Shown here: one piece after another, positions 7,721 through 31,614 of the stretch
Numbering within the stretch: position 1 is the stretch's first letter
How the letters are laid out: every line of letters starts with the position of its first letter
Source of the DNA: Planctomycetota bacterium
GTDB taxonomy: Bacteria > Planctomycetota > Planctomycetia > Pirellulales > PLA5
Length of the DNA: 39,667 bases
Assembly: GCA_003576845.1 (NCBI GenBank)
Contig: QEVJ01000046.1
Location: 1,565-41,231 of the forward strand
Direction of reading: 5' to 3'
Program-made: the position numbers and the translations under genes
The notes under the pieces: generated by a model
What the model was told of the DNA's origin: nothing
Database searches by the model: none
What the model saw: the letters and a program-made list of their open reading frames with translations, nothing else

Positions 7721-7836
7721 AGGCCATAGGCCCACTAACTTCTGCGCGGACTCCAAGCTGCGATCCGGATTGCCGGGGAGCAAGGGCCGCCGGGCTTTTT
7801 CGGAAGCCTTGAGGGGAGCTAGTGGGCCTATGGCCT
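7721..7836. repeat. 17-bp perfect inverted repeat upstream of the recombinase
   Basis: AGGCCATAGGCCCACTA (7721-7737) is exactly inverted at 7820-7836, with 82 bases between. It lies in the gap between the minus-strand zinc-ribbon gene and the plus-strand recombinase gene. It could be a recombination site, an operator pair or a large RNA hairpin. Confidence 0.75.
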
Positions 7837-7884
7837 TTTGCTTGCGCCGCGACCCGTTCGCGGCCGGCAGATTGGATGGCAGTC

Positions 7885-9852
7885 ATGGCCACCGTCACTC
7901 TTGCCGCGCGTGAACCCGACCCGCGCGACGTTCCGCTGCTCGAATTCGTGGAGCGCGTCTTCATCCCGCAGCGGCTTGGGAGCCGCTCGCAACGGTATGC
8001 GGATCAATACCGCGGCGCAACCACCTGGCTCGCGCGGCTCCTGGACCGCGTGCCCGTGCTGGACGACTTGCGGAAGCAAGTTCTCTGGCAGGTTCAATCG
8101 TTCATCGTGCAACAGGGCTTCAGCACGTGGCGGGCGCTGAACGTCAAGAAGCAACTCTCCGCCATCGCCCGCTGTGCCTGGCGGTTGGGCTGGCTCCCCG
8201 CGTGGGAACCGACCCGGAACATCCGCCACGTCGACCCGCCGGCGACGTTCCTGGACGCACCGCCGGCCGATGGCACGCTCGCCGCATGTTATCGCGACGT
8301 CGTGCTCCCGAAGCTCGCGGCCAGGCAGGCCGAACGCGGACGGAGGCGGTATAGCGTCTCGAATCGCGCCAACTCGATCGCCGCCGCCGTCGAAGCGTTC
8401 GACCGAATGCTCGGCAGGTACGGCGCGCCGGAAGATCTGACACCCGACAACGAAGCGGCCTTCCGCGACCGGATGGTCTCTCGCGGCCTATCGGAGGCGA
8501 CTTTTTACAACTATGCCAGCGACCTCAGGCTCGTGGCCCGCGTGCTCGATCCGGCGCTGCCCGATCGCCGCCGACACGTCGCACCGCTCCCGCCGCCGGC
8601 GGAAGGCACGGTCCGCCACTTTTGCGAGCACGTGTATAAGCCGACGCAGCTCATCGGGTCCGCGGACCTGGTGCTTTCGGATTACAGCCGCTTGATGCGG
8701 TGGCTGCATGGGTATGCGGGGCGCGACGTGCGGCTGGACGAGCTATCCGCCGTCTTCGTGGGAGGCTTCCTGCATTGGCTGTTGGCTTCGGGCACCCGCA
8801 ACGCCGCGACGGTGAACAAGTATCGCGGGATGCTGATGGCCGTGTGGCGTAGCGCGGCCGAACGGCATCTCGCGCCGCCAGTGCAACGAGTTCGCAAGCT
8901 CAAACAGGCGTTCGACGCGCCCGATTCACTCTCCCGCGACGAACTGCAACGGCTCATCGAAGCGCCGGCGGCGATCGCCTGGCGGAAAACGATCGCCGGC
9001 GTCTGCCCGATCGCCTGGTGGCGAGCCTACTTCCTGGTCGCGTTCTATACGGGGATGCGCCGCCGCAGTTTGCTCTCGCTGCGGACCGCCGACGTGAACC
9101 TCGAAACGGGCGTGGTCGACGCGGCCGGCGAGACCTTCAAGACCGGCAAGGGCCAGCGCTATATCTTGCCGCCCGAGGCGATCGTCGCCGTCGCGGAAAT
9201 CATCCAGCCGCCGCGGGAACTGCTGTTCGCCCGGCCGGACGACAGGCAGAACTTCCACAAAGAACTGGGCAAGATTTTCGCCGCGGCCGACATCCGGCCA
9301 TCGACCCGGCGGAGCATGAACAAGGGCCATCGGATTCGCCGCACGATCGCCACGGAGATTGCCGCCGAGCACGGCGTCGAAGCCGCGGCGCGGCTGCTCG
9401 GCAACACGCCCGATGTTTGCCGCAAGCACTACATCGACCCGACCCGCTCGGGTTACAGCACGGTCGCCGCGTCGCTCCCGCCGCTTTTGGCCACGCCGCC
9501 AGCGACGCCGGCGGAGCAACTCTTCGACGATCCGCGGCGGGCGATCGACGAAGCCCACAAGCTGTATCGCGCGGGGCACCTGGCCGCGGCCGCGGTCACG
9601 GCCCGCGTCGCGCTCCACGCGCACCTGCAAACGCTCGCCCGCCGGCATCGCCTGCACGCGCCGAACATCGGGCAACTGGCGACGGCCCTCTCGGCGAACG
9701 AAGTCATCGGCCGCGGCACGCGCGACGATATTCACCGCGTCCTCAAAACGGCGAACCGGGCAGCCCACGGCCGGATCGTCAGCCCCGTCGACGTGATTGA
9801 CTTGGTGCACGTCGTCCAAGCGATCGTCGCCGGCGACGCCGGTGGGCAGTGA
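7885..9852 (+). CDS. Large tyrosine recombinase with extra C-terminal helical domain
   Basis: 655 residues from ATG 7885 (ATG 7876 and 7822 are also in frame). Catalytic residues of the tyrosine recombinase family are all visible: Arg392 (YTGMRRRSLLSL), Lys422 (KTGKGQRY), His482 and Arg485 (GHRIRRT) and Tyr516 (CRKHYIDP). Two SAM-like arm/core-binding segments precede the catalytic domain (around 20-110 and 245-330). Beyond Tyr516 about 110 residues form a helical domain (AHKLYRAGHLAAAAVTARVA, later KTANRAAHG) that resembles DUF4145/HEPN-type helical domains but lacks the RX4-6H motif. It is one of two tyrosine recombinases in element 1; a role in multimer resolution or a second mobility step is possible. 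Confidence 0.85.
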   Translation: MATVTLAAREPDPRDVPLLEFVERVFIPQRLGSRSQRYADQYRGATTWLARLLDRVPVLDDLRKQVLWQVQSFIVQQGFSTWRALNVKKQLSAIARCAWRLGWLPAWEPTRNIRHVDPPATFLDAPPADGTLAACYRDVVLPKLAARQAERGRRRYSVSNRANSIAAAVEAFDRMLGRYGAPEDLTPDNEAAFRDRMVSRGLSEATFYNYASDLRLVARVLDPALPDRRRHVAPLPPPAEGTVRHFCEHVYKPTQLIGSADLVLSDYSRLMRWLHGYAGRDVRLDELSAVFVGGFLHWLLASGTRNAATVNKYRGMLMAVWRSAAERHLAPPVQRVRKLKQAFDAPDSLSRDELQRLIEAPAAIAWRKTIAGVCPIAWWRAYFLVAFYTGMRRRSLLSLRTADVNLETGVVDAAGETFKTGKGQRYILPPEAIVAVAEIIQPPRELLFARPDDRQNFHKELGKIFAAADIRPSTRRSMNKGHRIRRTIATEIAAEHGVEAAARLLGNTPDVCRKHYIDPTRSGYSTVAASLPPLLATPPATPAEQLFDDPRRAIDEAHKLYRAGHLAAAAVTARVALHAHLQTLARRHRLHAPNIGQLATALSANEVIGRGTRDDIHRVLKTANRAAHGRIVSPVDVIDLVHVVQAIVAGDAGGQ

Positions 9853-14823: not shown

Positions 14824-15123
14824 ATGATTGCTCCCCGATTCGATGCAGCGTGCGAGCCAGCGCCGGCGACGCGCCGCGCCGGGCTGTTGAACGTCGAACA
14901 AGTCGCCGAGTTGCTCGGCGTTTGCACGAAGACGGTCCGCCGGATGATGAAGGCCGACAAGCTGCCCCGGCATATCGAGTTGGGCCGGCTGTTCAAGTGG
15001 AAGGCCGACGAAATCCACCGCTGGATCGAGGCCGGTTGTCCCGATCGCGAAGAGTGGGAAGCCCGCGAGAAATGGAACCCGCTCGATGCGCTGCACGGCT
15101 TGCGGAGCGACAAGAATGCCTGA
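14824..15123 (+). CDS. Excisionase-like MerR/HTH_17 protein
   Basis: 99 residues from ATG 14824. The core GLLNVEQVAELLGVCTKTVR, then LPRHIELGRLFKWKADEIHRWIEAG, is a classic excisionase-family helix-turn-helix (HTH_17). It lies directly upstream of the integrase gene in the same direction. Such proteins bend attachment-site DNA and favour excision. An alternative is a transcription regulator of the integrase. Confidence 0.75.
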   Translation: MIAPRFDAACEPAPATRRAGLLNVEQVAELLGVCTKTVRRMMKADKLPRHIELGRLFKWKADEIHRWIEAGCPDREEWEAREKWNPLDALHGLRSDKNA

Positions 15124-15241
15124 CCGCTCCCACCTGGCCGGCATCGTGGTAGGATGCCACCTCGAAAGCCTTTGCTGGCTGCGCGGGCGACGGTCTTGCA
15201 CCCGTCGCTCGCGTGGCCGGCGTGCAAGAAAGGTCGAAGCC

Positions 15242-16822
15242 ATGTCCGTGTTCAAAATCAAGTTCAAGTGCCGCCGCACGGGCGAAACGAAGCTTTCGAG
15301 CCGCTACTACGGCAAAGCGGCCGACGCCGACGGCAAGGTGAGACGGCACAAACTCGCCGAGACGCGGCGGGCGAGCGAAGACCAACTCGCGGACCTCAAG
15401 TATCAGGCCAAGCTCGCCCGCTCGGCGAAAGACAACCCGATCGAAGCCGCGGCCCGGCGTCCACTGACCGAACACGTCATCGACTTCCGCCGCTATCTCG
15501 AATCGAAGCGCGTCACATCCGGCCACGTCGCCGGCTCGATCGGTCGGCTCGTGAAGCTTCTCGATGGGTGCGGCTTCCGGCTCATCGGCGACATTGCGCC
15601 GCAGGCGGTACGCGACTGGCTCAAGGCGCAGCTCGATCGCGGTTGGATCGACCCGCTGCCGGGAACCGTCGACGTTAGGCCGCGGCCCTTCGGTCTGGGC
15701 GCGGCGAATCACTATCTCACCGCGGCGAAGGCGTTTTGCCGCTGGGCGTACAATGACCACCGCCTGGCCCGCAACCCGCTCGCCGGGATCGCGAAGTTCA
15801 ATGAGCAAGAGGATCGGCGCCGGTCGCGGCGGGCGATGCTCGCCGATGAGTTGGAATGGTTGGTGAGCACCACGAAGGCCAGCGTAGACGACCGCAAGGC
15901 GCTGGCCGGGACGGATCGGGCGATGATCTATCAGGTTGCCGCGTTCACCGGTTTGCGGGCGAACGAAGTCGCCAGCTTGACGCCGGCCAGCTTCGACTTG
16001 GGCGCCGTGCGGCCGTACCTCATCGTCGAATCGACCATCTCGAAACGCCGGCGTCAGGACGTGCTCCCGATCGCCGACGGCCTGGCCGCGAGCCTTCGCG
16101 AGTTCCTCGACGCCCGCGAGTTGCTGCCGATCGAACGCCAAGCGCGGCTCTGGCCGGGCAAATGGTATCGGCGGGCCGCCGAGATTTTGCGCGACGACAT
16201 GGCGCAGGCCCGCGCGGGGTGGATCGAAGCCGCTCCGGAAGCGGACCGCGGCGAGCGTGAGGCGAGCGATTTCCTGTTGCCAGAGGACGCGAGCGGCGAC
16301 GTGCTGGACTTTCACGCGCTCCGCCACACGTTTTGCACGAACCTGGCCGCGTCGAACGCATCGCCCAAGATGCTCATGGAATTGGCCCGGCATTCGACAC
16401 CCGCGCTGACCTTGGGCCGCTATGCCCACATGCGATTGAGCGACGCCCACAACGCCGTCAACGCCCTGCCGACGCTCGGCGACCCGCGGCAACGCGAGGC
16501 CCTGAAGGCCACGGGAACGGACGGCAGAGCGGCCCAGGAGGCGCGCGAGAATCGGCCCCCGGCGACTAGACCAAAACTAGACCAAAACGGCGCCGAAACG
16601 GCCGAAAAACCCCACCTTCGCTGCACCGCGACTAGACCACGGCGGAAGCGTGAAAGTCCACAAATGTCCACGGACGCCGGCGAGCAAACCGGCGAGAATG
16701 CCGGGAAAGATGGTGAAGCGTGTCCACAAAAATCCTCAATAGTCAGTAGCCGAGGCGGGGATCGAACCCGCACGGGGATTAACTCCCCACAGGATTTTAA
16801 GTCCTGTGCGCCGTTCGCGTAA
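15242..16822 (+). CDS. int: Tyrosine integrase reading through its attachment site
   Basis: 526 residues; ATG 15242 with GAAAGG upstream is preferred to the longer frame. Catalytic set: Arg239 (FTGLRANEVASL), Lys268 (ISKRRRQ), His358 and Arg361 (FHALRHTF), His384 (LARHST), Tyr394 (LGRYAHM). An N-terminal arm-binding region (FKIKFKCRRTG..LSSRYYGKA) and a SAM-like core-binding domain (about 75-180) precede the catalytic domain. The low-complexity tail from about 410 covers the candidate arm sites and then the 55-bp core (SRGGDRTRTGINSPQDFK), stopping 21 bases beyond it. The gene lies at the end of element 1, next to its attachment site, so it is the likely enzyme for integration. Confidence 0.92.
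   Translation: MSVFKIKFKCRRTGETKLSSRYYGKAADADGKVRRHKLAETRRASEDQLADLKYQAKLARSAKDNPIEAAARRPLTEHVIDFRRYLESKRVTSGHVAGSIGRLVKLLDGCGFRLIGDIAPQAVRDWLKAQLDRGWIDPLPGTVDVRPRPFGLGAANHYLTAAKAFCRWAYNDHRLARNPLAGIAKFNEQEDRRRSRRAMLADELEWLVSTTKASVDDRKALAGTDRAMIYQVAAFTGLRANEVASLTPASFDLGAVRPYLIVESTISKRRRQDVLPIADGLAASLREFLDARELLPIERQARLWPGKWYRRAAEILRDDMAQARAGWIEAAPEADRGEREASDFLLPEDASGDVLDFHALRHTFCTNLAASNASPKMLMELARHSTPALTLGRYAHMRLSDAHNAVNALPTLGDPRQREALKATGTDGRAAQEARENRPPATRPKLDQNGAETAEKPHLRCTATRPRRKRESPQMSTDAGEQTGENAGKDGEACPQKSSIVSSRGGDRTRTGINSPQDFKSCAPFA
16565..16639 (+). other. Candidate integrase arm-type sites, right end
   Basis: ACTAGACCA at 16565-16573, 16576-16584 (11 bp apart, one helical turn) and 16631-16639, same orientation as the copy at 1621-1629. 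(T)GTCCAC words follow at 16656, 16665 and 16721. All lie within 185 bp of the right core. Confidence 0.5.
16747..16801 (-). repeat. Right attachment core: 3' fragment of tRNA-Leu(UAA)
   Basis: Second copy of the 55-bp core. Here the anticodon stem is complete (CAGGA-CTTAAAA-TCCTG, minus strand), with the tRNA match reaching about 16810, but the D arm and 5' acceptor strand are missing. It is therefore not a working tRNA in this window. Confidence 0.85.
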
Positions 16823-21209: not shown

Positions 21210-21419
21210 ATGTCGAATTCACCGCGATTACCGCTGAATCCCACGGCCTTGCCTTTAGCAGACGCGGCCCGCGCGCTGGCACAGGTTGGCGGTGAACCGG
21301 TCACCGAAGAGATGCTCCGCACCGATGTCGACGCCGGCGCACCGACGAATGCGAACGGCACTTTGAATCTCGTTCACTATGCGGCGTGGCTCGCCAAGGA
21401 GATGGGGCGTGGCGACTGA
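21210..21419 (+). CDS. Small phage protein before the terminase, candidate small-subunit-type protein
   Basis: 69 residues from ATG 21210. Pattern: short Pro-rich leader, helix, GGEPVTEEMLRTDVDAGAPT, then LVHYAAWLAKEMG. It overlaps the terminase start by 11 bases. Its fold pattern is similar to the N-terminal 60 residues of the terminase itself. A DNA-recognition role in packaging is inferred. Confidence 0.55.
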   Translation: MSNSPRLPLNPTALPLADAARALAQVGGEPVTEEMLRTDVDAGAPTNANGTLNLVHYAAWLAKEMGRGD

Positions 21420-23679
21420 TCCGCGACAACTTCGACCGACCGAACTATGCCGGTTGCTCAACAGCACGCCCCTGGGCGAGGTGATCAACGAACGGCAGTT
21501 GCATCGCCACCGCACGCGCGCCGGCCTGCGGATCGGCGACGCGCGGCATGTCGATCTATTGCGGTACGTCGCGTGGATGGTCCACGAGCGCCATACGCCG
21601 CGACCGCAAGCCGATGGCGATCCCTACGAGCGATTAAAGGACCGCGCACGCGCTCGGAATATCGCGCTCGCCATCGCGGGGCGCGACATCGGCGACTTGC
21701 CGGAAGTCGTGAATCCGGAGCGAAAGGCTAAGGCCGCGTCGGACTTCCGTTACTTCTGCGAATCATACTTCCCGCTAACGTTTCACCTACCGTGGTCGCC
21801 CGACCATTTGAAAGTGATTGAGAAAATCGAACGCGCCGTTTTGCACGGTGGTCTGTTTGCAATGGCGATGCCCCGCGGGTCAGGCAAGACGACGATCTGT
21901 GAATGCGCCTGCATCTGGGCAGTGCTGTACGGGCACCGCGAGTTCGTCTGTCTGATCGGCTCCGACGAAGGCCACGCGATGGACATGCTCGATTCGATCA
22001 AGATGGAACTCGACGGCAGCGATTACTTACTCGACGACTTCCCGGAGGTCGTCTATCCGATCCAAGCCCTCGACGGGATCGCCAACCGGGCCAATGGCCA
22101 GCTCTACAAGGGCGAACGCACGCACATTGGTTGGACCGCCCGCGAAATCGTCCTGCCGACCATGCCCGGCAGCGTGGCCAGTGGCGCGATCATCAAGGTT
22201 GCCGGTATCACGGGGCGGATTCGGGGCATGAAATACAAGCGGGCCGACGGCCAGACGGTTCGCCCAACTCTCGTTGTACTGGACGATCCGCAGACCGACG
22301 AATCAGCACGCAGCCTGTCACAGTGCGCCACGCGCGAAGGTATCCTCGCCGGCGCGGTCCTTGGCCTGGGTGGACCGGGCAAGAAGATCTCCGGCATCAT
22401 GCCCTGCACGGTGATCCGGCCCGGCGACATGGCGGACAACATCCTCAGCCGCGACAAGCATCCGGAATGGAACGGCGAACGAACCAAGATGGTTTACTCG
22501 TTCCCGACCGACGAGAAGAAGTGGGAACGGTACGGCGAACTCCGCGCCGAAAGCCTCCGCAGCCACGGTGATATTCATGCGGCGACCGAGTTCTACGTCG
22601 CCGACCGCGTCGCAATGGACGAGGGAGCGTTGATCGCGTGGCCCGAACGGTTCAATCACGACGAGGCGTCGGCCATCCAGCACGCGATGAACCTGAAGTT
22701 ACAAGACGAAGCAGCGTTCTTCGCTGAGTACCAGAACGAACCGCTCCCGGTCGACGCTGGCACCGACGATGAACTGACCGCCGATCAGATCGCCGGCAAG
22801 GTGAACCGCATGCAGCGCTACGAGGTTCCAATCGGCAGCAACCACTTGACCATGTTCGTCGACGTCCAGGCATCGCTCCTGTTCTACGTCGTCGCCGCCT
22901 GGGAGGATGACTTTACCGGCTACGTGATCGACTACGGAACGTTCCCCGATCAACACCGGCCCTACTTCACGCTCCGCGACGCCCGACAGACGCTTACCAT
23001 CGCGACGAAGGCCAGCGGCCTCGAAGGGGCGATCTACGCCGGTCTCGAGGCACTGACCGCGATGTTCCTCGGCCGCGAATGGCGGCGCGATGACGGCGCG
23101 ATGCTGCGGATCGAGCGGTGCCTGATCGACGCGAACTGGGGATCGTCGACGGACGTGGTCTATCAGTTCTGCCGGCAATCCGCGAGCGCCGGAATCGTCA
23201 TTCCCAGCCACGGTCGGTTCGTCGGCGCTTCGAGTCAACCATTCACTGAATACAAGCGAAAACCCGGCGACCGCATTGGCCACAACTGGCGAATGCCGAA
23301 CGTTAACGGCAAGCGCGCGGTGCGGCACGTCGTGTTCGATACGAACTTCTGGAAGTCGTTCACGCACGCCCGGCTTGCCGTGCCGATGGGTGACCGGGGG
23401 TGCCTATCGCTGTTCGGCGACGGCCCCGACCAGCATCGACTCCTCGCCGACCATCTGACCGCCGAGTACCGCGTGAAGACCGAAGGCCGCGGTCGGACGG
23501 TTGACGAATGGAAGTTGCGGCCGGAGCGGAGCGACAATCACTGGCTCGATTGCGTCGTCGGCAGCGCAGTCGCGGCGTCAATTCAAGGGGCATCACTTGC
23601 GGGAACCGGCGGAAGTGTCGCACCGCCGAAGCGGGAGCGTGTGAGTTTTGCCGAACTACAGAGGAGACGACGGGAATGA
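21409..23679 (+). CDS. terL: Terminase large subunit
   Basis: 756 residues. GTG 21409 is chosen because AAGGAG stands 7 bases upstream; ATG 21379 has no such site. Walker A AMPRGSGKTT at about 153-162, Walker B LVVLDDPQ near 289-295 and a nuclease-type domain starting at TMFVDVQASLLFYVVAAWED. The protein packages DNA into proheads using ATP and cuts the concatemer. It is longer than many TerL proteins owing to an N-terminal extension of about 60 residues that resembles the upstream small protein. The stop overlaps the next ATG (ATGA). Confidence 0.93.
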   Translation: MATDPRQLRPTELCRLLNSTPLGEVINERQLHRHRTRAGLRIGDARHVDLLRYVAWMVHERHTPRPQADGDPYERLKDRARARNIALAIAGRDIGDLPEVVNPERKAKAASDFRYFCESYFPLTFHLPWSPDHLKVIEKIERAVLHGGLFAMAMPRGSGKTTICECACIWAVLYGHREFVCLIGSDEGHAMDMLDSIKMELDGSDYLLDDFPEVVYPIQALDGIANRANGQLYKGERTHIGWTAREIVLPTMPGSVASGAIIKVAGITGRIRGMKYKRADGQTVRPTLVVLDDPQTDESARSLSQCATREGILAGAVLGLGGPGKKISGIMPCTVIRPGDMADNILSRDKHPEWNGERTKMVYSFPTDEKKWERYGELRAESLRSHGDIHAATEFYVADRVAMDEGALIAWPERFNHDEASAIQHAMNLKLQDEAAFFAEYQNEPLPVDAGTDDELTADQIAGKVNRMQRYEVPIGSNHLTMFVDVQASLLFYVVAAWEDDFTGYVIDYGTFPDQHRPYFTLRDARQTLTIATKASGLEGAIYAGLEALTAMFLGREWRRDDGAMLRIERCLIDANWGSSTDVVYQFCRQSASAGIVIPSHGRFVGASSQPFTEYKRKPGDRIGHNWRMPNVNGKRAVRHVVFDTNFWKSFTHARLAVPMGDRGCLSLFGDGPDQHRLLADHLTAEYRVKTEGRGRTVDEWKLRPERSDNHWLDCVVGSAVAASIQGASLAGTGGSVAPPKRERVSFAELQRRRRE

Positions 23680-23885
23680 AAGGCGGCGAATCGACGCAGG
23701 CCGAGCTTGGCATTCGTTGCCCACAGTGCGGCTGCCGGCATTTCGATACAACGAACACCGAACCATTACGGGATGGTCGAATCCGGCGACGAAAGACTTG
23801 CCGCGGATGCGGACGCCGCATCGTTACGTATGAATCCCGTCAAAGTGCAATTGGGAAGCCCACAGACTGTTGTGAAACTCTATAA
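23676..23885 (+). CDS. Zinc-ribbon protein resembling the NrdR N-terminus
   Basis: 69 residues; ATG 23676 overlaps the terminase stop (ATGA), with GAGGAG about 10 bases upstream. Four-Cys ribbon: CPQCGCRHFDTTNTEPLRDG, then RRRKTCRGCGRRIVTYES, very like the NrdR zinc ribbon (CPxC..RRRRxCxxCxxRFTTYE) without the ATP-cone domain. A small phage DNA-binding or regulatory protein is likely. Confidence 0.75.
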   Translation: MKGGESTQAELGIRCPQCGCRHFDTTNTEPLRDGRIRRRKTCRGCGRRIVTYESRQSAIGKPTDCCETL

Positions 23886-23906
23886 AGAAGGCTGCAAAGC
23901 CCGCGA

Positions 23907-23928
23907 GCAGGCGGCAATTGCCTGCCCA
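23907..23928. terminator. Hairpin between convergent genes
   Basis: GCAGGC and GCCTGC flank an inner GGCAATTGCC palindrome. It separates the plus-strand packaging genes from the minus-strand cassette that begins at 27241 and ends at 23931. Confidence 0.4.
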
Positions 23929-23930
23929 GA

Positions 23931-24512
23931 TCAAGGGACTTCAGGCGGATGGGGCAACTTCTCAGAATCTCGTCCGGCTCGGGATTCGCCATCTTTCTCG
24001 ACCTTGGTTCGACTGCCCTTACTAGATTGCGTCGCAGCACATCTCTTCGCCTTCCTCATATAAACGAGCGGTTCTCCGTAGTCGGCATGGTTCACGTGCT
24101 CGGGCTGCTCGTGCTGAATATCCACCCAATTCCCAAGCTTGCTGGACCACATCCCATTAGGCATCAATTTGGCAGCGTGCTGCCACTCGTGGCCAGATCC
24201 CGTCTGAACTCCGTAGAGGACAACCTTATCGAAAGACTGGTCGTACTCCAGGGGAGCTTCATCGCAGATCTCGAATCCTTTGGTCTGATACGCCGCAATC
24301 AGCGATGTGAGGCATCCAGTTCTAGGCACGCCGTCTGGCCAGTACCCACGAAGGAGATCCCAAGGGCGGTGTTTTTCGCCGACGGCCCAGGCGATGCAAT
24401 TGTAACGTGGCGTTTGCTTACTCGTGAGACGCCATTTAGTTCCGCGCAAGCCATCAAACTCCAACTCTACTTCGCTGCGGATTCGTTGTTGCTCGCGGCG
24501 TCGCGCTTTCAT
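23931..24512 (-). CDS. DUF7689-type protein
   Basis: 193 residues. The pattern YNCIAWAVGEKHRPWD, GYWPDGVPRTG, CLTSLIAAYQTKGFEICD, FDKVVLYG, HAAKLMPNGMWSSKLGNWVD, IQHEQPEHV, YGEPLVYMRKAKR fits the DUF7689 family, whose biochemical function I do not know; a Cys/His-containing papain-like fold is conceivable. Its ATG overlaps the stop of the upstream methylase gene by 4 bases, so the two are co-translated. Members of this family commonly lie beside genes for a small HPxYxxI domain, which here is fused to the methylase. Confidence 0.75.
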   Translation of the reverse strand: MKARRREQQRIRSEVELEFDGLRGTKWRLTSKQTPRYNCIAWAVGEKHRPWDLLRGYWPDGVPRTGCLTSLIAAYQTKGFEICDEAPLEYDQSFDKVVLYGVQTGSGHEWQHAAKLMPNGMWSSKLGNWVDIQHEQPEHVNHADYGEPLVYMRKAKRCAATQSSKGSRTKVEKDGESRAGRDSEKLPHPPEVP

Positions 24513-27241
24513 ATCTCGTATCCGTTATCTCGCCCCCAATTGAACCAAGCGATCGAAACTTGCTTTGCGGACATTTGCGCGGGATTAGCTGGCGAACTCC
24601 CAGTCAACTCGCGCAATGCAGTGTCCCAGTGTACTTCCCCGTCGCGAATTTCGCGCAGCAAATAGGGTATGATGGAAGTGCCTAGATCGACAATTCTCTT
24701 GTAAAGCGGATGGGCGATTCTCCTGTCTTCACGCGACATAATTAGCGTCGCTTCCTCCCATTGTTGGGAAAGAAGCTTGAATTCTCGATAAAGCCGCTCA
24801 GACGCCAAGTCTGGGCGGTTAATTGCTTTGCCGTTTCGATCAAGCCCATAGGCTCTCATTACGAGCGACTCATGCTCGCCAGCATCAACAGACTTTCCAG
24901 TCGCGAGTCGTCGCCCAATCGCAGCCAGTGAATTGCGAAGTGCGTTATCCGAGAGCGATGGCAATGGCACCCGCTCAACGAAATGTCGCCGTAGAGTGAA
25001 TTGCCCGCCGCGAATCTGTGGGCAGTATGCGGGCAGAATTCTCTCAAACAGCGAACTGTTCAAGATTGCTAGGTATGCAAGCAGCCGTGAAGTGTGAGGT
25101 TTGCCCCGCTTCCAGCACCAACCGAAGCCTTGCACAACGGCGTAGACGCCCAATGGGTCTATTGCGAAGTCTCCAGCCTTGCCAAACTCTTTTGAGACGA
25201 TTCGCGGAACTCTTTTCGCCAGCCAAGTCGCAACCGGTCGACTAACCTCCCACCAATTCCGATAGAGACTTTTTCGGTCACTCAGTTCGCGTTTCGCTGG
25301 GCGTAAACGCTCTTCAAAAAAAACTGGCAAAGTAGTCCTGACCTCCTGCTCGGTCTTCAAGAGGAGGCCTCCAGACTCGTCATACGGATAGAAAATGTAG
25401 CCCGACGGTTGAATGATTCCATTTTCAATCCGATCGGCAATTGGCCGAAACAACCTCTGCTCTCTACGGCGGGTGCAAAAGCGACGAAATTCACCTTCAT
25501 CAAGGATAAAGACTGGTTTGTTACCAACGCGCACGCCCAGTTTTGGAACAAAGAAATCGGCAACCGTTGTCAGCGTGTTGTGAAGAATCTCTCGAATGAA
25601 TGCTGCACTAGCCGCCGATTGTGGGGACCAATTCTCGTTCGCCAGCTCTAATTGTTCGATGTTGCGTAACTCAAACCCGCTACCGACTATCTCCGTAGTC
25701 CATTCTGTTGAGCGCAAGAGTCGAATTGCCTGTTCAGCACTCTTGTCGTCGGCGATAACCACTCTGATAGGCGTCGTAGAGTCGGCTGAACGTGAAATCA
25801 CCAGGAACGCTGGTTGGACTGTCGCATCGAAGTACCCGAAATGAAGTTGACCGATCAAATGAATTCGGAACTTTCCACTTCGCGAGAAGTATCGCCGGAT
25901 CAATTCGGCGGATCTTGAGTCGAGAAATGAGGACGGCATTACAGTCGCCAGCACGCCGCCAGGAGCTAACGACTCCGCTGCCTTGAAGATAAATGCAAGC
26001 GCAATGTCGGGACGGTCTGAATACGCTGGACCGAGGGTGGATTTGACAAGTTGCCTATCGCCCGGGGGGAGCTCATTCCATGCAACAAATGGCGGATTCA
26101 TTAAAACGATATTTGGCTTCCCCCAGTTCTTAATCGCGAGCGAATCATGCTCGACAATCCGAAGTGAGTACCGAGAATCTTCGGATTCGGAAATTGCGTA
26201 CCGAACGGGGTGTTCGGCCATCGTCACGGCGATTTTCGATTTATCAATTCCAACGAACTGGACAGAAGTCGGTGGCTCGGACGCGATCAACTCTCGAAAT
26301 GCTTCAATCAAAAAGACCCCTGATCCACATGCTGGGTCCAAGATCGAAAAAGGCCCTTCATTCGGCCACTGAACGAACTTAAGTGCGACCTCGATTAGCG
26401 CCCGCGCGAGCGACTCTGGAGTATGATGGATGTAGCTTGGCGCAGCATCACGTCGACCACCATGATCGACCACCATGAACTCTGGAAACAGTTCTCGTTG
26501 GGATGAGATAATTCCAGGCGATCGCAGCTCTTTGTGTGCCTCTTGGTACAGAGTGCCACTTGCGTGGCGCACTAAGAGATCGGCGTCTAATAAGTATCCA
26601 GAGCTGCCGCCGTCGCGCAGCAAGCTGACAAGTTCACCTAACGGGAAATCGCGAAGGTTATCGCTGACATTAGCTTCCGAAATCCACGGCGCTCCAACAC
26701 GACGAAGTGCTCGTGCCGCTTGGAAAAGAGTTAGGCTTGTGTCATCGCCGGTAACGGTTGCAACCCAGGCAATTAGGATATTGAAAGAAAACGCCACATC
26801 GACAGAGTTGCCGCCGCGTTTTTCTACCGCGGCCCTAACTGCGCCAAAAGTTTCCAGCGCTCGATCGATTACTGTGTTTTCAGACGGACTTGGCGTCTGC
26901 TGAAACTGGTCGAAAATGGCCGCAACATCATCTTCGGTTTCGACCCGTTGTTGACTTTCTAAGTCAGGGGCATCCCAACGGCGAAGCGTCGCCATCGAGC
27001 CTTGGTTGAGTTCCACTGACCAGCGAACATTCGCTGACCATGCGCGCTGATTGGCCGTCGCGCGCGGCACTCTGGATTCGGAATCGACAATTGACAAAGC
27101 GAAGCTGCCGTCGCGCCCGTCGAGCATGATGGCATGTGTGCCAGACTCGTTACGCGCGCGCGCGGCACCAAACATGGGCACAGAAACTAAGCCCAAGGCA
27201 TGCGCCCAGCATTCTGGTAATCGTGGATTCCAAGCAGACAT
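24509..27241 (-). CDS. N6-adenine DNA methylase-like protein fused to an HPxYxxI-type domain
   Basis: About 910 residues; ATG 27241 is used, GTG 27250 adds three residues. SAM-binding motif DPACGSGVFL near 302-311 and catalytic NPPF near 382-385 mark an N6-adenine methylase of the HsdM/type IIG kind. The following 400 residues look like a target-recognition region. I see no PD-(D/E)xK nuclease motif. The last 90 residues (WEEATLIMSREDRRIAHPLY, KRIVDLGTSIIPYLLREI, VHWDTALRELTG, AWFNWGRDNGY) match a small domain usually encoded as a separate gene next to DUF7689. G+C is visibly lower than in flanking phage genes. Lies between terminase and portal on the opposite strand. Confidence 0.8.
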   Translation of the reverse strand: MSAWNPRLPECWAHALGLVSVPMFGAARARNESGTHAIMLDGRDGSFALSIVDSESRVPRATANQRAWSANVRWSVELNQGSMATLRRWDAPDLESQQRVETEDDVAAIFDQFQQTPSPSENTVIDRALETFGAVRAAVEKRGGNSVDVAFSFNILIAWVATVTGDDTSLTLFQAARALRRVGAPWISEANVSDNLRDFPLGELVSLLRDGGSSGYLLDADLLVRHASGTLYQEAHKELRSPGIISSQRELFPEFMVVDHGGRRDAAPSYIHHTPESLARALIEVALKFVQWPNEGPFSILDPACGSGVFLIEAFRELIASEPPTSVQFVGIDKSKIAVTMAEHPVRYAISESEDSRYSLRIVEHDSLAIKNWGKPNIVLMNPPFVAWNELPPGDRQLVKSTLGPAYSDRPDIALAFIFKAAESLAPGGVLATVMPSSFLDSRSAELIRRYFSRSGKFRIHLIGQLHFGYFDATVQPAFLVISRSADSTTPIRVVIADDKSAEQAIRLLRSTEWTTEIVGSGFELRNIEQLELANENWSPQSAASAAFIREILHNTLTTVADFFVPKLGVRVGNKPVFILDEGEFRRFCTRRREQRLFRPIADRIENGIIQPSGYIFYPYDESGGLLLKTEQEVRTTLPVFFEERLRPAKRELSDRKSLYRNWWEVSRPVATWLAKRVPRIVSKEFGKAGDFAIDPLGVYAVVQGFGWCWKRGKPHTSRLLAYLAILNSSLFERILPAYCPQIRGGQFTLRRHFVERVPLPSLSDNALRNSLAAIGRRLATGKSVDAGEHESLVMRAYGLDRNGKAINRPDLASERLYREFKLLSQQWEEATLIMSREDRRIAHPLYKRIVDLGTSIIPYLLREIRDGEVHWDTALRELTGSSPANPAQMSAKQVSIAWFNWGRDNGYEI

Positions 27242-27352
27242 GGAAGACACCGCAGAGGGGTATCTTTGGAATTATCCACGAATCCAAGCGGTACTACAAT
27301 AGCGGTCATTTGGCGGCGGGACAACCTTCGCGGCCATCGCCAGCGCGACCGG

Positions 27353-27589
27353 TTAACGGCATTCAGGCCAGTTGCCCTCCATTCCATTGATCGCAGGCAC
27401 TATCCGCTCGCCACCGGTCAGCGTGCGACTGTTCCAACGGAATGCGAACTCGTTCGTGTATCGCGGCAAATGGCGTCTCAAGAGCTGATGCAAAATGCCG
27501 TTGTGACGGCGCTCCAGCCAGGCGAAAGACGATTCGGCCGTGTTCTTGCGGGCGAGCCATCCGCCTATTCGCGATATCCTGAAAAACAC
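27353..27589 (-). pseudogene. Remnant of an ISXO2/IS1595-type transposase (3' end)
   Basis: About 78 residues with KNTAESSFAWLERRHNGILH, then RYTNEFAFRWNSR and GGERIV, matching the end of the DDE domain of ISXO2-like transposases (NTaEs.fsLLKRGi.GtyHhvs..hL.RYl.EFaFR.N.R). The conserved Glu of the DDE triad would be the one in NTAES. The rest of the gene is missing, so it is a fragment. It lies upstream of the methylase gene in the same direction. Confidence 0.75.
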
Positions 27590-27867
27590 CTTCGCGTTGT
27601 GATTGATCGCATGATGCCCGCCATCGTAGCCGCTGTCTTATCCTCGATTCTTGATCGCTTATTCGGTATAGATTGCCCAGTGCAGCAGCCCTTCACCTGC
27701 ACTGATTCGATCTAACCGAACTGACGAATGTTGCCAAATGTAGCACATTTTTTCAACGCTACGTGAAAAAGGATTGACCGATCCTTCACCGCTCTCTAGG
27801 AATTAGAGACGACACTAGCACGGGCGACGCCGGTGACTGATCCTCATCGCCGAACCCAGTCAGCGCC

Positions 27868-27908
27868 AAAGGCCATGCGGGGCCGCAATCCTCGCGTGGC
27901 CTTTTTTC
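27868..27908 (+). terminator. Rho-independent terminator
   Basis: AAAGGCCATGCG, a loop of about 11 bases, then CGCGTGGCC followed by TTTTTT. It closes the cassette region on the left of the head gene operon, which starts at 27949. Confidence 0.8.
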
Positions 27909-27948
27909 GTTGGCTCGCCCGGCTGGTTGTCGTTTCGGAGTACGCGCG

Positions 27949-28143
27949 ATGGCTGAACTAGACGAGACGATCCGCGAAAACGCTCAAGGGCCTGCCAAGG
28001 CGTCGGGCGACACCGGCTCAGTCGAACAGCACAAGCTGCCGGACCAGATCGCGGCGGATCGGTATCTCGCGTCGAAGGATGCGGCCAAGTCGAAATCGCG
28101 CGGCCTCGTCCTGAACAAGTTCGTTCCACCGGGAACTTCGTAG
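27949..28143 (+). CDS. Small head-tail joining-type phage protein
   Basis: 64 residues from ATG 27949 with GGAG about 9 bases upstream. LDETIRENAQGPAKASGDTG, then SVEQHKLPDQIAADRYLASK and a C-terminus ending FVPPGTS, typical of the small phage protein encoded just before lambda-type portals. It overlaps the portal start by one base. Confidence 0.8.
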   Translation: MAELDETIRENAQGPAKASGDTGSVEQHKLPDQIAADRYLASKDAAKSKSRGLVLNKFVPPGTS

Positions 28144-29627
28144 TGCTAACGCGGCTTATCAACGCGATGAAACGCGCCAAGCCGGCAGCGATGCCGACGC
28201 GAGGAATGCGAATCATTCGTGCCCGCTACGACGCCGCATCGACGAACGACGACAACCGCCGCCATTGGGCCAACGCCGACGGGCTTTCGGCAAACGCGGC
28301 GAACAGCCCTGACGTCCGAAGCAGATTGCGGAACCGCGCCCGCTATGAGGTCGCCAACAACAGCTACGCTCGCGGGATCGTGGATACGCTTGCGAATGAC
28401 GTTATCGGCACCGGGCCTCGCCTGCAAATGCTCACCGAAAACGCCGATGCTAACCGCCGCATTGAACGCGAGTTCATGGCCTGGGCGAAAGCAGTCGGCC
28501 TTGCCGAGAAGCTCCGAACGATGCGAAAGGCACGAGCCGAGGACGGCGAGGGATTCGGAGTGTTGACCAGCAATCCGCGCTTGCCAACGGCGATCCAACT
28601 CGATCTGCACCTCATCGAAGCCGACCAAGTTTGCACGCCCGATCTTAAGCTGCTCGTCCCCAACGCTATCGACGGCATCGTGTTCGACGCCTGGGGAAAC
28701 CCAGTCGAATACCACGTGCTGAAGGCACACCCTGGCGATATGTCGGCGCTCGCCTTGCGTGACTACGAACGCGTCCCCGCAAGCGCCGTCGTCCATTGGT
28801 TCCGTGCTGATCGACCGGGCCAAGCTCGCGGCATTCCCGACATCATGCCGGCGCTGCCGCTGTTCGCGCAGCTTCGTCGCTTTACGCTGGCGGTCTTGGC
28901 CGCCGCCGAAACGGCCGCCGACTTCGCAGGCATCTTGTACACCGACGCGCCTGCCAATGGCGAAGCCGACGCCGCCGAACCGTTCGAGCCAATCGAACTC
29001 GAAAAGCGCGCGCTGCTCACCATGCCGGGCGGTTGGAAAATGAGCCAAATGGAAGCCGAACAACCTTCGACTTCCTACGCGGAGTTTAAGCACGAGTTGC
29101 TCAACGAAATCGCCCGCTGTTTGAACATGCCGTTCAACATCGCAGCGGGCAATTCCTCCGGATACAACTACGCATCGGGTCGGCTCGATCATCAGACGTA
29201 TTTCAAATCGCTTCGAGTCGAGCAGGCCCATCTCGAATGCGTGATTCTCGACCGCATTCTCGCCGCGTGGTTCGACGAGGCCGTATTGATTCCCGGCCTC
29301 CTGCCCGCGGGTCTCGGACTCATCGCCGACTGGCCACACCAGTGGTTTTGGGACGGCCACGAACACGTTGACCCCGCCAAAGAAGCGTCGGCGCAAACGA
29401 TGCGTCTAGCGAATCACACCACCACGCTCGCGGACGAATACGCGCGGCGCGGGCTCGATTGGGAAACTCAGCTTCGCCAACGTGCGAAGGAGTTGTCGCT
29501 CATGGCGGAACTTGGTCTGACCACGGCGCAAGCCATCGCCATGCCGGCAGCGCCTGCGCCCGAAGAGGACGACGAAGAAGAGGACGAGGATGTCGAAGAA
29601 GAAACCACAACTCGAAAAGCCGCCTGA
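28143..29627 (+). CDS. Phage portal protein, lambda family
   Basis: 494 residues from GTG 28143, coupled to the previous stop (TAGTG). Features of lambda-type portals: RYDAASTNDDNRRHWANADG, then RNRARYEVANNSYARGIVDT, GTGPRLQ, DLHLIEADQVCTP, VVHWFRADRPGQARGIPDIM and a very acidic C-terminus (EEDDEEEDEDVEEE). The portal forms the dodecameric ring through which DNA enters the head. The 3' end overlaps the next gene by 38 bases. Confidence 0.93.
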   Translation: MLTRLINAMKRAKPAAMPTRGMRIIRARYDAASTNDDNRRHWANADGLSANAANSPDVRSRLRNRARYEVANNSYARGIVDTLANDVIGTGPRLQMLTENADANRRIEREFMAWAKAVGLAEKLRTMRKARAEDGEGFGVLTSNPRLPTAIQLDLHLIEADQVCTPDLKLLVPNAIDGIVFDAWGNPVEYHVLKAHPGDMSALALRDYERVPASAVVHWFRADRPGQARGIPDIMPALPLFAQLRRFTLAVLAAAETAADFAGILYTDAPANGEADAAEPFEPIELEKRALLTMPGGWKMSQMEAEQPSTSYAEFKHELLNEIARCLNMPFNIAAGNSSGYNYASGRLDHQTYFKSLRVEQAHLECVILDRILAAWFDEAVLIPGLLPAGLGLIADWPHQWFWDGHEHVDPAKEASAQTMRLANHTTTLADEYARRGLDWETQLRQRAKELSLMAELGLTTAQAIAMPAAPAPEEDDEEEDEDVEEETTTRKAA

Positions 29628-31614
29628 GCCGCGCGAGCTGAACTTGCTCGCGTCGGCTGTCGAGCTTGAAGCGGCAGCGCCGGAGAGCGAGCCGAACAAG
29701 CTGCGTCGGTTCTCGATGACGGCGTACACCGGCGGGCCGATGCAGCTTGCCGGCTGGCGATATCCCGTTGTCGTTGATCTGCAGGGATTGCAGGTCGGCG
29801 GACAACGTCGGCCGATTCTGCTCGACCACACCCGCGACGTCGACTTCGTGATGGGACAGACGGACAACGTGGGCGTGGTGAACAACCAACTCGTCGTCGC
29901 CGGCCACGTGATGGGCGAATCGACGAAGGCGAAACAGGTCATCGCCCTGAACGACAAAGGCTTTGCGTGGCAGTCGTCGATTGGCGCTCGGGCTGATCAG
30001 GTCGAGTTCGTCCCCGAGGGAAAAACGTCGCAAGCCAACGGCCGGGAGTTCGCCGGCCCTGTGAACATCGCTCGGCGGGCCACGCTCGGCGAGATCAGTT
30101 TCGTCGTGCTCGGCGCGGACGACAACTCGTCCGCTCAGATCGCCGCCTCCGCTCAACCGAAAAAGGAGCTTGATATGGAATTCGCCACCTGGATCGAAGC
30201 CCAAGGGTTCACGCCCGACGCGCTCAACGACTCCCAAACCAAGAACCTGCGGGCACTCTATGACGTCCAGGCCGCAAAGCCGACGACGCCAGTCGAGCCG
30301 CCGCCTAATCCCACGGTGCAGATTCGCGCCGAGGCGATCGCCGAACTCGAACGGATCAACGCCATCCGCAAGGCGTGCGATAGCAAGCATCCGGAGATCG
30401 AGGCGCAAGCCATCAAAGAAGGCTGGGATGTCACGAAAACCGAACTCGCCGTACTCCGCGCCAGCCGGCCATCGGGACCGGCCATCCACATTGGCGGCAA
30501 TGGCGGCAACCCCATCGCGTCGCAGGTGATCGAAGCGGCGCTCTGCTTGCAAGCCGGCGTTCCCTGCGAGCAGCAATACGCCGCCCAGACTCTCGAGGCC
30601 GCCAACAAGTATCGTCGCCGAGGACTCCGCTGGTGCGCCGAGCAGATTTGTGCCGCCCACGGCCGCGTCATCGACGCCGACCCCGGCACGCGCGAGTGGA
30701 TTCAGGCGGCGTTCTCAACCAGCGAACTGTCCGGTATCGTCGGCAACGTCGCCAACAAGGCGCTCCAAGCGGCCTTCCAGGCGGCACCGTCGGTCGCCGA
30801 TCGGATTACCGCCGCCAAGTCTCATACGAATTTCCACGCCCATACCGTCTATTCGATGGTACTCAACGGCGATCTTCAGCCGGTCGGGCCGGACGGCGAA
30901 CTTAAGCACCTGTCACTGTCGGAAGAGTCTCGCACGCGGCAACTCGACACTCGCGGAGCGGTCCTTTCCATCACGCGCAAGGACATCATCAACGATTCGC
31001 TGAACGCCTTCGCCGAAAACGCGATCGGCATGGGACGCAAGGCGGTCATGTCGCGCGAGAAGGCGCTCTTCACGTCGCTCAACGCGACCGGCAACGGGGC
31101 GAGCTTCTTCACCACCGCCCGCGCCAACTACTTCGAGGGCGCTCCGAGCGCGCTGTCGCTTTCCAGCATCTCGACCGCCGTGCAGATGTTCCGCGACCTC
31201 AAAGGTCCGGACGGCGACCCGATCATGATCGAGCCGCGTCTGCTGTTGGTGCCGACGGCGCTGGAGACGACCGCCCGTGAGGCGATGACGTCGCAGTTTG
31301 TCCTCGGCCCGACCACGGGCAAGACGCCGAACGTGAACATCTGGCAGAACGCCTTCACGCCGATCACCTCGCCGTGGCTCTCCAACACGAACCTGTCGGG
31401 CGCGAGCAGCACCGCTTGGTATCTGCTGGCCGACCCAGCGGACATGGCCGCGATCGAGATCGCCTACCTCAACGGTCAGCAGACGCCGACCGTCGAGTTC
31501 TTCGGTCTCGACTCGGACCCGAACGTCCTCGGCGTCACGTGGCGCGTTTTTTGGGACTTCGGCGTCGCGCTCGGCGAGTTCCGGGCTGGGGTCAAGAGCA
31601 AGGGCACTGCGTAG
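29590..31614 (+). CDS. Prohead protease / major capsid fusion protein
   Basis: 674 residues from ATG 29590. Residues 1-190 are a prohead protease with candidate His80 (RRPILLDH) and Ser130 (WQSSIGA), followed by GEISFVVLGADDNSS. Residues about 196-674 are a capsid domain: a charged helical delta-like region, then SVADRITAAKSHTNFHAHTV and FGLDSDPNVLGVTWRVFWDF near the C-terminus. Protease/major capsid fusions are a known phage architecture. Met196 (ATG 30175) has AAGGAG 6 bases upstream, so a free capsid protein may also be made. Confidence 0.9.
   Translation: MSKKKPQLEKPPEPRELNLLASAVELEAAAPESEPNKLRRFSMTAYTGGPMQLAGWRYPVVVDLQGLQVGGQRRPILLDHTRDVDFVMGQTDNVGVVNNQLVVAGHVMGESTKAKQVIALNDKGFAWQSSIGARADQVEFVPEGKTSQANGREFAGPVNIARRATLGEISFVVLGADDNSSAQIAASAQPKKELDMEFATWIEAQGFTPDALNDSQTKNLRALYDVQAAKPTTPVEPPPNPTVQIRAEAIAELERINAIRKACDSKHPEIEAQAIKEGWDVTKTELAVLRASRPSGPAIHIGGNGGNPIASQVIEAALCLQAGVPCEQQYAAQTLEAANKYRRRGLRWCAEQICAAHGRVIDADPGTREWIQAAFSTSELSGIVGNVANKALQAAFQAAPSVADRITAAKSHTNFHAHTVYSMVLNGDLQPVGPDGELKHLSLSEESRTRQLDTRGAVLSITRKDIINDSLNAFAENAIGMGRKAVMSREKALFTSLNATGNGASFFTTARANYFEGAPSALSLSSISTAVQMFRDLKGPDGDPIMIEPRLLLVPTALETTAREAMTSQFVLGPTTGKTPNVNIWQNAFTPITSPWLSNTNLSGASSTAWYLLADPADMAAIEIAYLNGQQTPTVEFFGLDSDPNVLGVTWRVFWDFGVALGEFRAGVKSKGTA
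30163..30177 (+). promoter_or_regulatory. Internal ribosome binding site and start for the capsid part
   Basis: AAGGAG at 30163-30168, spacer CTTGAT, ATG at 30175, in frame within the fusion gene and exactly at the junction of protease and capsid domains. A 479-residue capsid protein would result. Confidence 0.6.

Follow-up and report, generated by a model that had tools for sequence, protein, structure and literature searches.

The window (the whole stretch of DNA analysed, 39,667 nucleotides) contains a prophage, in which a low-GC insertion of about 4.1 kb splits the terminase from the portal gene. The terminase large subunit lies on the left flank (21379-23679, plus strand; GpA_nuclease, E = 2.9e-24) and the portal on the right (28143-29627, plus strand; phrog_21, E = 2.1e-65), with a protease/major head protein beyond it (29590-31614). 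Two genes, overlapping by 4 bp, are found on the minus strand of the insertion: one encodes a methyltransferase of 913 amino acids (24509-27250), the other a DUF7689 protein of 193 amino acids (23931-24512). The G+C content of both is 0.53-0.56, versus 0.62-0.66 for the terminase, portal, head and tail genes; the corresponding GC3 values are 0.53-0.60 versus 0.71-0.82. Terminase and portal are spaced by 400-690 bp in 60 of 72 related phages, versus 4467 bp in the window, and the gap is about 0.5 kb in sister prophages, one of which, in the same genome and with a terminase 93% identical, has about 510 bp. Comparison with sister prophages places the insertion approximately at 23840-27943 (no strand assigned), nucleotide similarity ending at about 23838 and returning at about 27944. 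An earlier note on this DNA, in which a minus-strand pair of lower G+C, with a 4-base overlap, was said to interrupt the packaging/head operon, is borne out by these data.

Next to the pair, a remnant of an IS1595/ISXO2-like transposase (27353-27589, minus strand) matches the last 39 positions of the PF12762 profile (E = 1.9e-8); the cassette proper is therefore taken to span about 23.9-27.25 kb. At the equivalent site, related phages carry AbiEi/AbiEii, REase-ARP, AAA_14-DUF4143 and M78-peptidase genes.

The methyltransferase and its C-terminal domain

With 913 open codons and intact motifs, the methyltransferase reading frame cannot be due to chance; comparison with homologues indicates the ATG at 27241, rather than position 27250, as the likelier start. 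The product matches the N6_Mtase (E = 1.9e-12) and Eco57I (E = 2.4e-7) profiles, and contains motif I, DPACGSG (residues 305-311; 26318-26338, minus strand), and a motif IV of the N6-adenine type, NPPF (residues 385-388; 26087-26098, minus strand), as expected of an N6-adenine methyltransferase. The nearest solved structure is M.BseCI (E = 5e-12). Catalytic core and motifs are shared with M.BseCI/Eco57I-type N6-adenine methylases, to which the window protein adds an N-terminal region of about 270 residues and a C-terminal domain.

No nuclease was recognised, either within the protein (no profile match, and no PD...E-x-K found in the N-terminus by pattern search) or in the genes adjoining the cassette, which are phage genes and the IS remnant. 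The cassette was thus rejected as a complete restriction-modification (R-M) system, although a nuclease of an unrecognised type may be present. BREX and MADS were also rejected: the matches of the methyltransferase to PglX and MAD2 fell far under the curated cut-offs, and no companion genes of these systems were recognised in the cassette. No relatives were found with the whole methyltransferase in the scan of genome contigs, or with its alignment in that of viral contigs, and only a weak type IIG match was returned by a search of INPHARED.

The last 90 or so residues (about 824-913; 24512-24781, minus strand) correspond to the small gene that precedes DUF7689 in other genomes (partner HMM, 109 bits), as the earlier note had proposed. 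This helical 'HPxYxxI' domain, here called the partner domain, is a candidate antitoxin or adaptor. The window copy has diverged, at 33% to the representative of the family, and sits on a long branch in the tree. Rhizobial and sphingomonad homologues of the methyltransferase stop just short of the domain; in these partner-less forms, located on Sinorhizobium and Sphingomonas plasmids, a different overlapping gene of about 250 amino acids lies where DUF7689 would sit. A recognised antitoxin-family domain was found in only one standalone partner, which is joined to DUF433, predicted to be an antitoxin family (PMC2701414). In three loci (L009, L011, L122), the start looked by eye like that of an AF2212/DUF104-like antitoxin, but Pfam did not support this. 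Some partners from low-GC prophages (L027, L028, L030-L032) bear a hydrophobic N-terminus, which the guard model described below does not account for.

Pairing, decay and predicted fold of DUF7689

The downstream gene belongs to DUF7689 (PF24738), with a score of 111.6 bits versus a cut-off of 22.6 (E = 4.8e-32). In 54 loci, collected by a DUF7689 search alone, a partner gene lies directly upstream of DUF7689 in 51, the exceptions being two fragments and one fused form; in L013, a partner-like helical domain is fused in place of the separate partner. The partner domain is thus a near-obligate upstream companion of DUF7689. The two are found in planctomycetes, cyanobacteria, Nitrospirota, Chloroflexota and other taxa. 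Conserved opposite-strand ORFs over the pair were rejected as genes, being shadow frames.

Decay of the pair is asymmetric. An intact DUF7689 is missing beside 24 of 124 distinct partners, and a clear downstream remnant was found in 10 of these 24, while no intact DUF7689 was seen beside a broken partner among the 54 DUF7689 loci and the 124 partners. A tight two-gene pair, in which the intact toxin never occurs without its antitoxin while the antitoxin may stand alone, is what type II toxin-antitoxin systems present; to judge from gene content, the pattern fits DUF7689 as a candidate toxin and the partner as its candidate antitoxin.

The same anatomy would result from addiction rather than phage sensing, a DUF7689 toxin and a fused antitoxin making loss of the R-M gene lethal, and thereby stabilising a selfish cassette in prophage or chromosome. 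R-M systems can themselves be selfish, addictive elements (PMC2701414, PMC12707154), the toxin gene decays ahead of the antitoxin, and the context, with its IS remnant, is mobile. We nevertheless consider addiction unlikely: a standalone antitoxin would suffice for it, whereas the fusion to several R-M classes and the insertion in hsd operons reported below suggest functional coupling, and the prophage site is one common to Abi-type cargo.

In an alignment of 64 DUF7689 sequences, Cys39, within a YNC motif (24396-24398, minus strand), is invariant, and His112 (24177-24179, minus strand) is conserved in at least 90%, and invariant in two further comparisons; they are the candidate nucleophile and catalytic base, respectively. 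In the AF2 model (pLDDT 86.7), C39 starts a helix (39-43) and H112 lies within a strand (107-116), reproducing the cysteine at a helix start and the histidine in the following sheet typical of the papain-like/NlpC-P60 superfamily. The top 50 second-look alignment rows for the DUF7689 part, obtained with two independent models, are essentially all enzymes of the papain/NlpC superfamily. The best fold match has a Z of 6.0-6.2 (VIA), which is below 8 and insecure as a fold match alone; toxin/immunity pairs are also among the matches (9l5u, Tse1/Tae1 and Tae3, Z 4.1-5.9). By sequence conservation, and by fold in the models, DUF7689 resembles a papain/NlpC-like cysteine peptidase. An AF2 model of partner and DUF7689 in a single chain, made by reading through a real stop solely to join the two proteins, reached a pTM of 0.79; this is compatible with contact between them, but is not proof of it. 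DUF7689 had no match in INPHARED and no hit in PADLOC, and neither DUF7689 nor TIGR04255 was mentioned in the literature searched.

Given a peptidase-like fold in the models and a partner always adjoining DUF7689, the partner domain could instead be a substrate, which a non-toxic DUF7689 would cut off the R-M enzyme, switching it on or off. Such a role in maturation or regulation appears very unlikely: most partners occur as short, free-standing proteins and have no enzyme to control, and their persistence beside broken DUF7689 genes fits an antitoxin better than a substrate.

Partner domains on restriction-modification enzymes

All nine of the confident long proteins carrying the partner domain are R-M enzymes, of three classes. 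The window-type methyltransferase fusion is also present in G707, G638 and G049. HSDR-like-N6_Mtase-S single chains are found in G041, L075/G776 and G1053, all three with a PD...E-x-K-type motif, motif I and motif IV; in G014 the MTase-S part is fused to the domain, the upstream half lying in another frame, and in G372 the fused enzyme is of the ResIII type. DUF7689 follows directly in six of the nine. No DUF7689 is visible in the roughly 300 bp before the contig end in G707, while the contigs of G049 and G372 stop within the partner domain. Weak long hits in L129/G325 (a HEAT-repeat-like protein) and in G582/G645/G681 (E of about 1e-3) were not counted as fusions. In addition, two Nitrospirota genomes (L098, L108) contain the series hsdR - TIGR04255 - partner - DUF7689 - hsdS - hsdM, all in one direction.

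The fusions require four changes in the tree, at least two of them forced by well-supported branches, and a single origin is therefore unsupported. Five fused rows from different R-M classes group together, which suggests that partner domains may have passed from one enzyme to another.

These data extend to three R-M classes and two hsd operons the tie between the DUF7689 pair and DNA modification, which the earlier note had drawn from the window fusion. Its suggestion of a defence cassette, perhaps of a self/non-self or toxin-antitoxin kind, likewise gains support from the fusions, the hsd operons, the cargo hotspot and the asymmetric decay, all read from sequence.

Most pairs are in fact standalone, with no recognised defence gene adjoining; around the cyanobacterial ones, in particular, the genes are varied and no conserved defence neighbour was seen. 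These surroundings, and the silence of the literature searched on DUF7689, would suit a mundane pair of genes without any part in defence, carried as chance cargo and only incidentally fused to R-M enzymes. This we regard as extremely improbable, since nine R-M enzymes, of three classes, out of nine confident long fusions are unexpected by chance, all the more so with copies in hsd operons and at a cargo site of phages.

Non-nucleolytic restriction would assign the peptidase the place of the restriction nuclease: the methyltransferase would scan for its unmethylated site, and its binding to foreign DNA, not its failure, would activate DUF7689 through the fused domain. The window-type methyltransferases lack PD-(D/E)xK by pattern search, as well as a recognised nuclease neighbour, and DUF7689 occupies the position held by another gene in the partner-less plasmid homologues. 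This possibility is distinctly unlikely, as other fusions keep the pair although they include a nuclease that is apparently intact, and the type I operon copies include a full hsdR.

A candidate guard and its relation to known systems

We put at even chances that the cassette is a prophage-borne defence module of the toxin-antitoxin type, with its antitoxin built into a DNA-modification enzyme and a guard action set off when that enzyme is disabled. We infer toxicity, neutralisation and trigger as follows. As long as the cell is healthy, DUF7689 would be bound and kept inactive by the partner domain, so that the methyltransferase, or the whole R-M enzyme, would double as antitoxin. Should an invading phage inhibit, titrate or destroy this enzyme, or stop its synthesis, DUF7689 would be freed and might then cleave or otherwise modify an essential host or phage protein; the infected cell would arrest or die ahead of phage multiplication, and the prophage would benefit from the exclusion of competing phages. 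In the window version, with no recognised nuclease, methylation and guard may form the whole system.

The guard reading draws on the fusion of the partner to R-M enzymes of several classes, its place within the hsd operons (comparable to that of prrC in the hsd locus), the near-constant pairing and asymmetric decay, the papain/NlpC-like matches, which include toxin/immunity pairs, the cargo hotspot with AbiE and other genes, and the DUF433 fusion. Counted against it were the Z of about 6, the prevalence of standalone pairs, the divergent window partner, and the presence of DUF7689 after only six of the nine fusions.

A broader proposal, which is possible but which we would sooner doubt than accept, is a class of immunity-suicide modules: R-M enzymes of unrelated types would carry a built-in antitoxin domain silencing a papain-like protease toxin and would themselves be the fuse, the window version would guard methylation alone, without a nuclease, and the two-part module, joined to other upstream proteins (TIGR04255 and others), would act as a general plug-in alarm. 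With a candidate antitoxin fused to three R-M classes beside a candidate toxin, the guard idea is testable with two genes. If true, it would provide a function for DUF7689 and the unnamed partner domain, and place a protease-like toxin within a guard system, which would sound the alarm, by killing the cell or stalling it, once the DNA-defence enzyme is disabled.

Among known systems, PDB 9l5u, Tse1/Tsi1 and Tae3/Tai3, with which the DUF7689 models align, are papain-like cysteine protease toxins, each with a small immunity protein. They are secreted weapons against other cells, whereas the window DUF7689 has no visible delivery domain and its candidate immunity domain forms the C-terminus of a DNA methyltransferase. 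CmdTAC (PMC11618068) shares the three-part logic of the TIGR04255-partner-DUF7689 operons, with one further protein beside toxin and antitoxin, but its toxin is an mRNA ADP-ribosyltransferase and its third part a chaperone; no sequence relation to the cassette is claimed. PARIS (PMC12707154), to which the cassette may be likened, is borne by phages or satellites, detects counter-restriction and triggers abortive infection; it relies on AriA/AriB, a separate sensor complex recognising anti-restriction proteins. PADLOC revealed no sequence relation between DUF7689 and PARIS.

PrrC, a well-studied model, is a suicide effector released upon R-M inhibition, a guard within the hsd locus (PMC3506569, PMC12707154). 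An effector silenced by the R-M enzyme and freed upon its inhibition, as shown for PrrC/EcoPrrI, is the logic that we infer here. The pair lies inside the hsd locus, as prrC does, in L098 and L108, whereas the window copy is tied to a methyltransferase only. PrrC joins an ABC-type NTPase to a tRNA-anticodon nuclease; DUF7689 is peptidase-like, and no such domains were found in the cassette by Pfam, NCBIfam and PADLOC scans. Unlike PrrC, the cassette has a dedicated domain physically fused to the R-M protein. What is new is the presence of the partner domain on R-M enzymes in all nine confident long carriers, and of the pair within an hsdR-hsdS-hsdM operon.

The cassette and its insertion site

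The cassette pairs an N6-adenine methyltransferase that carries an additional domain at its C-terminus (minus strand, 24509-27250, 913 aa) with a DUF7689 gene (minus strand, 23931-24512). The two overlap by 4 bp, as the earlier note had reported. The methylase probably starts at the ATG at 27241, because its homologues begin near the WNPR motif; motif I (DPACGSG) and motif IV (NPPF) are both preserved. The lower G+C content also noticed there was confirmed, GC3 being 0.53 and 0.60 in the pair against 0.71-0.82 in the adjoining phage genes.

The flanking genes encode a terminase, a portal and a fused protease/major head protein. Terminase and portal are separated by 400-690 bp in 60 of the 72 related phages in which both genes could be placed, and by about 510 bp in a sister prophage of the same genome, whose terminase is 93% identical. 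Similarity to this and other sister prophages is lost near 23838 and resumes near 27944; from these breaks and the short gaps in relatives, the cassette is an insertion of about 4.1 kb, in line with the claim that the pair interrupts the packaging/head operon. An IS1595 transposase remnant lies close to its right end.

In 12 related phages, gaps of 0.8-4.5 kb were found at the same point. Cargo recognised there includes AbiEi/AbiEii pairs, a REase-ARP protein, an AAA_14-DUF4143 ATPase, an ImmA-like M78 peptidase and a Beta-protein family member. Phage cargo sites with antiviral systems are known for P2 and P4 (PMC9122126). In this phage group the terminase-portal gap (window 23.7-28.1 kb; loci L210-L289) accommodates cargo, AbiE pairs and further defence-like genes among it; the inserts of L214, L280 and L288 also hold genes without assignment. 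Two integrase-family genes left of the head genes (7822-9852 and 15086-16822) suggest two elements or a composite integration.

The partner domain and its upstream neighbours

Over its final ~90 residues the methylase matches, as proposed, a small protein that other genomes encode immediately before DUF7689; the window copy is divergent. This partner domain had no match in Pfam, NCBIfam, PHROGs or PADLOC scans. Among loci found from DUF7689 alone, the partner is upstream in 51 of 54 distinct cases, the exceptions being two fragments and a single protein to which a helical domain is fused. Starting from the partner, DUF7689 is present for 100 of 124 distinct copies, and 10 of the remaining 24 have a clear DUF7689 remnant downstream of an intact partner frame. 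Such asymmetric decay is the pattern expected from a toxin and its antitoxin, and is taken as evidence, not proof, of that relationship.

An intact partner gene beside a broken DUF7689 is frequent in cyanobacteria (L057, L061, L066, L067, L083, L094, L112 and others). In low-GC prophages (L027, L028, L030, L031, L032), the partner has a hydrophobic, signal-peptide-like N-terminus, and DUF7689 has none.

The neighbourhoods of standalone pairs were examined by clustering. In two Nitrospirota genomes (L098, L108), hsdR (EcoEI_R_C), TIGR04255, partner, DUF7689 and hsdS follow each other on one strand, with hsdM further on. TIGR04255 relatives occur in 27 examined loci, some of which are overlapping views of one place, and in six loci (L022, L052, L091, L109, L110, L189) the gene immediately before the partner belongs to a second family, of ~247 aa. 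One partner carries a fused DUF433, a predicted antitoxin family (PMC2701414). Given these varied upstream genes and fusions, the partner looks like an adaptor attached to interchangeable upstream proteins, restriction-modification (R-M) enzymes included. The three-gene TIGR04255-partner-DUF7689 operon recurs in distant bacteria and low-GC prophages (L098, L108, L031 and others).

Fusions to R-M enzymes

Searches with the partner domain returned nine confident long fusions, a count that depends on the genomes sampled, many being metagenome assemblies; all nine are to R-M enzymes. Four are methylases of the window type (the window and contigs G707, G638 and G049, the latter three 36-37% identical to the window protein). 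Three are single chains, joining an HSDR-like nuclease region, N6_Mtase and a specificity region (G041, L075/G776, G1053), and all retain a PD...E-x-K-type motif and methylase motifs. G014 belongs with the single chains, its upstream half lying in a different frame, and G372 is a ResIII-family enzyme. DUF7689 immediately follows the fusion in the window, G638, G041, G014, L075 and G1053; the contig ends inside the partner domain in G049 and G372, and no DUF7689 was found within the last ~300 bp of the G707 contig.

On the partner-domain tree, the fused state requires four changes, at least two of them forced, and five fused copies of three enzyme classes cluster together. This topology suggests repeated gain of the module as well as its transfer between R-M enzymes. 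On Sinorhizobium and Sphingomonas plasmids, the window methylase has homologues that lack the partner domain; after each of them an overlapping gene of ~250 aa takes the place of DUF7689 (L018 14465-15202, L019 14390-15172).

A candidate effector and known systems

The AF2 model of DUF7689, built from 64 sequences, has a mean pLDDT of 86.7. Foldseek gave no significant match with it; second-look alignments were nearly all to papain-like and NlpC/P60 enzymes, with Z of 6.0 for staphopain and AvrPphB, 5.5 for the papain-like toxin/immunity pair 9l5u and 4.6 for Tse1/Tae1. A second model, from a partner-linked protein of another species, gave the same fold answer (best Z 6.2). Cys39 is conserved without exception and His112 almost as strictly. 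DUF7689 is likely a cysteine peptidase or amidase-type enzyme.

Among the accounts weighed, a guard is best supported: the fused partner domain would keep DUF7689 silent for as long as the methylase or R-M enzyme stays intact; once that enzyme is disabled, DUF7689 would be freed. The rivals of this account are simple addiction, activation of DUF7689 by unmethylated DNA, and proteolytic maturation of the methylase or R-M enzyme. The guard account draws on what was observed of the anatomy of the cassette, the pairing of the two genes and their pattern of decay, the tendency of the fold, the fusions to R-M enzymes, the R-M operons and the cargo site; it presumes binding, toxicity, a trigger and phage protection.

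Identity with BREX or MADS was rejected, as was a recognisable full R-M system in the window. No mention of DUF7689 or TIGR04255 was found in the literature searched, subscription papers and preprints lying outside its scope. As a proposal, the cassette would share its working logic with PrrC and EcoPrrI (PMC12707154, PMC3506569), although the sequences are unrelated, the effector is different and the dedicated fused domain belongs to the cassette. In a proposal by Makarova et al. (PMC3506569), toxins are inhibited by immunity proteins; the authors also remarked that systems of this sort lack typical antitoxins. An antitoxin-like domain fused to the enzyme would give that proposal a concrete example.
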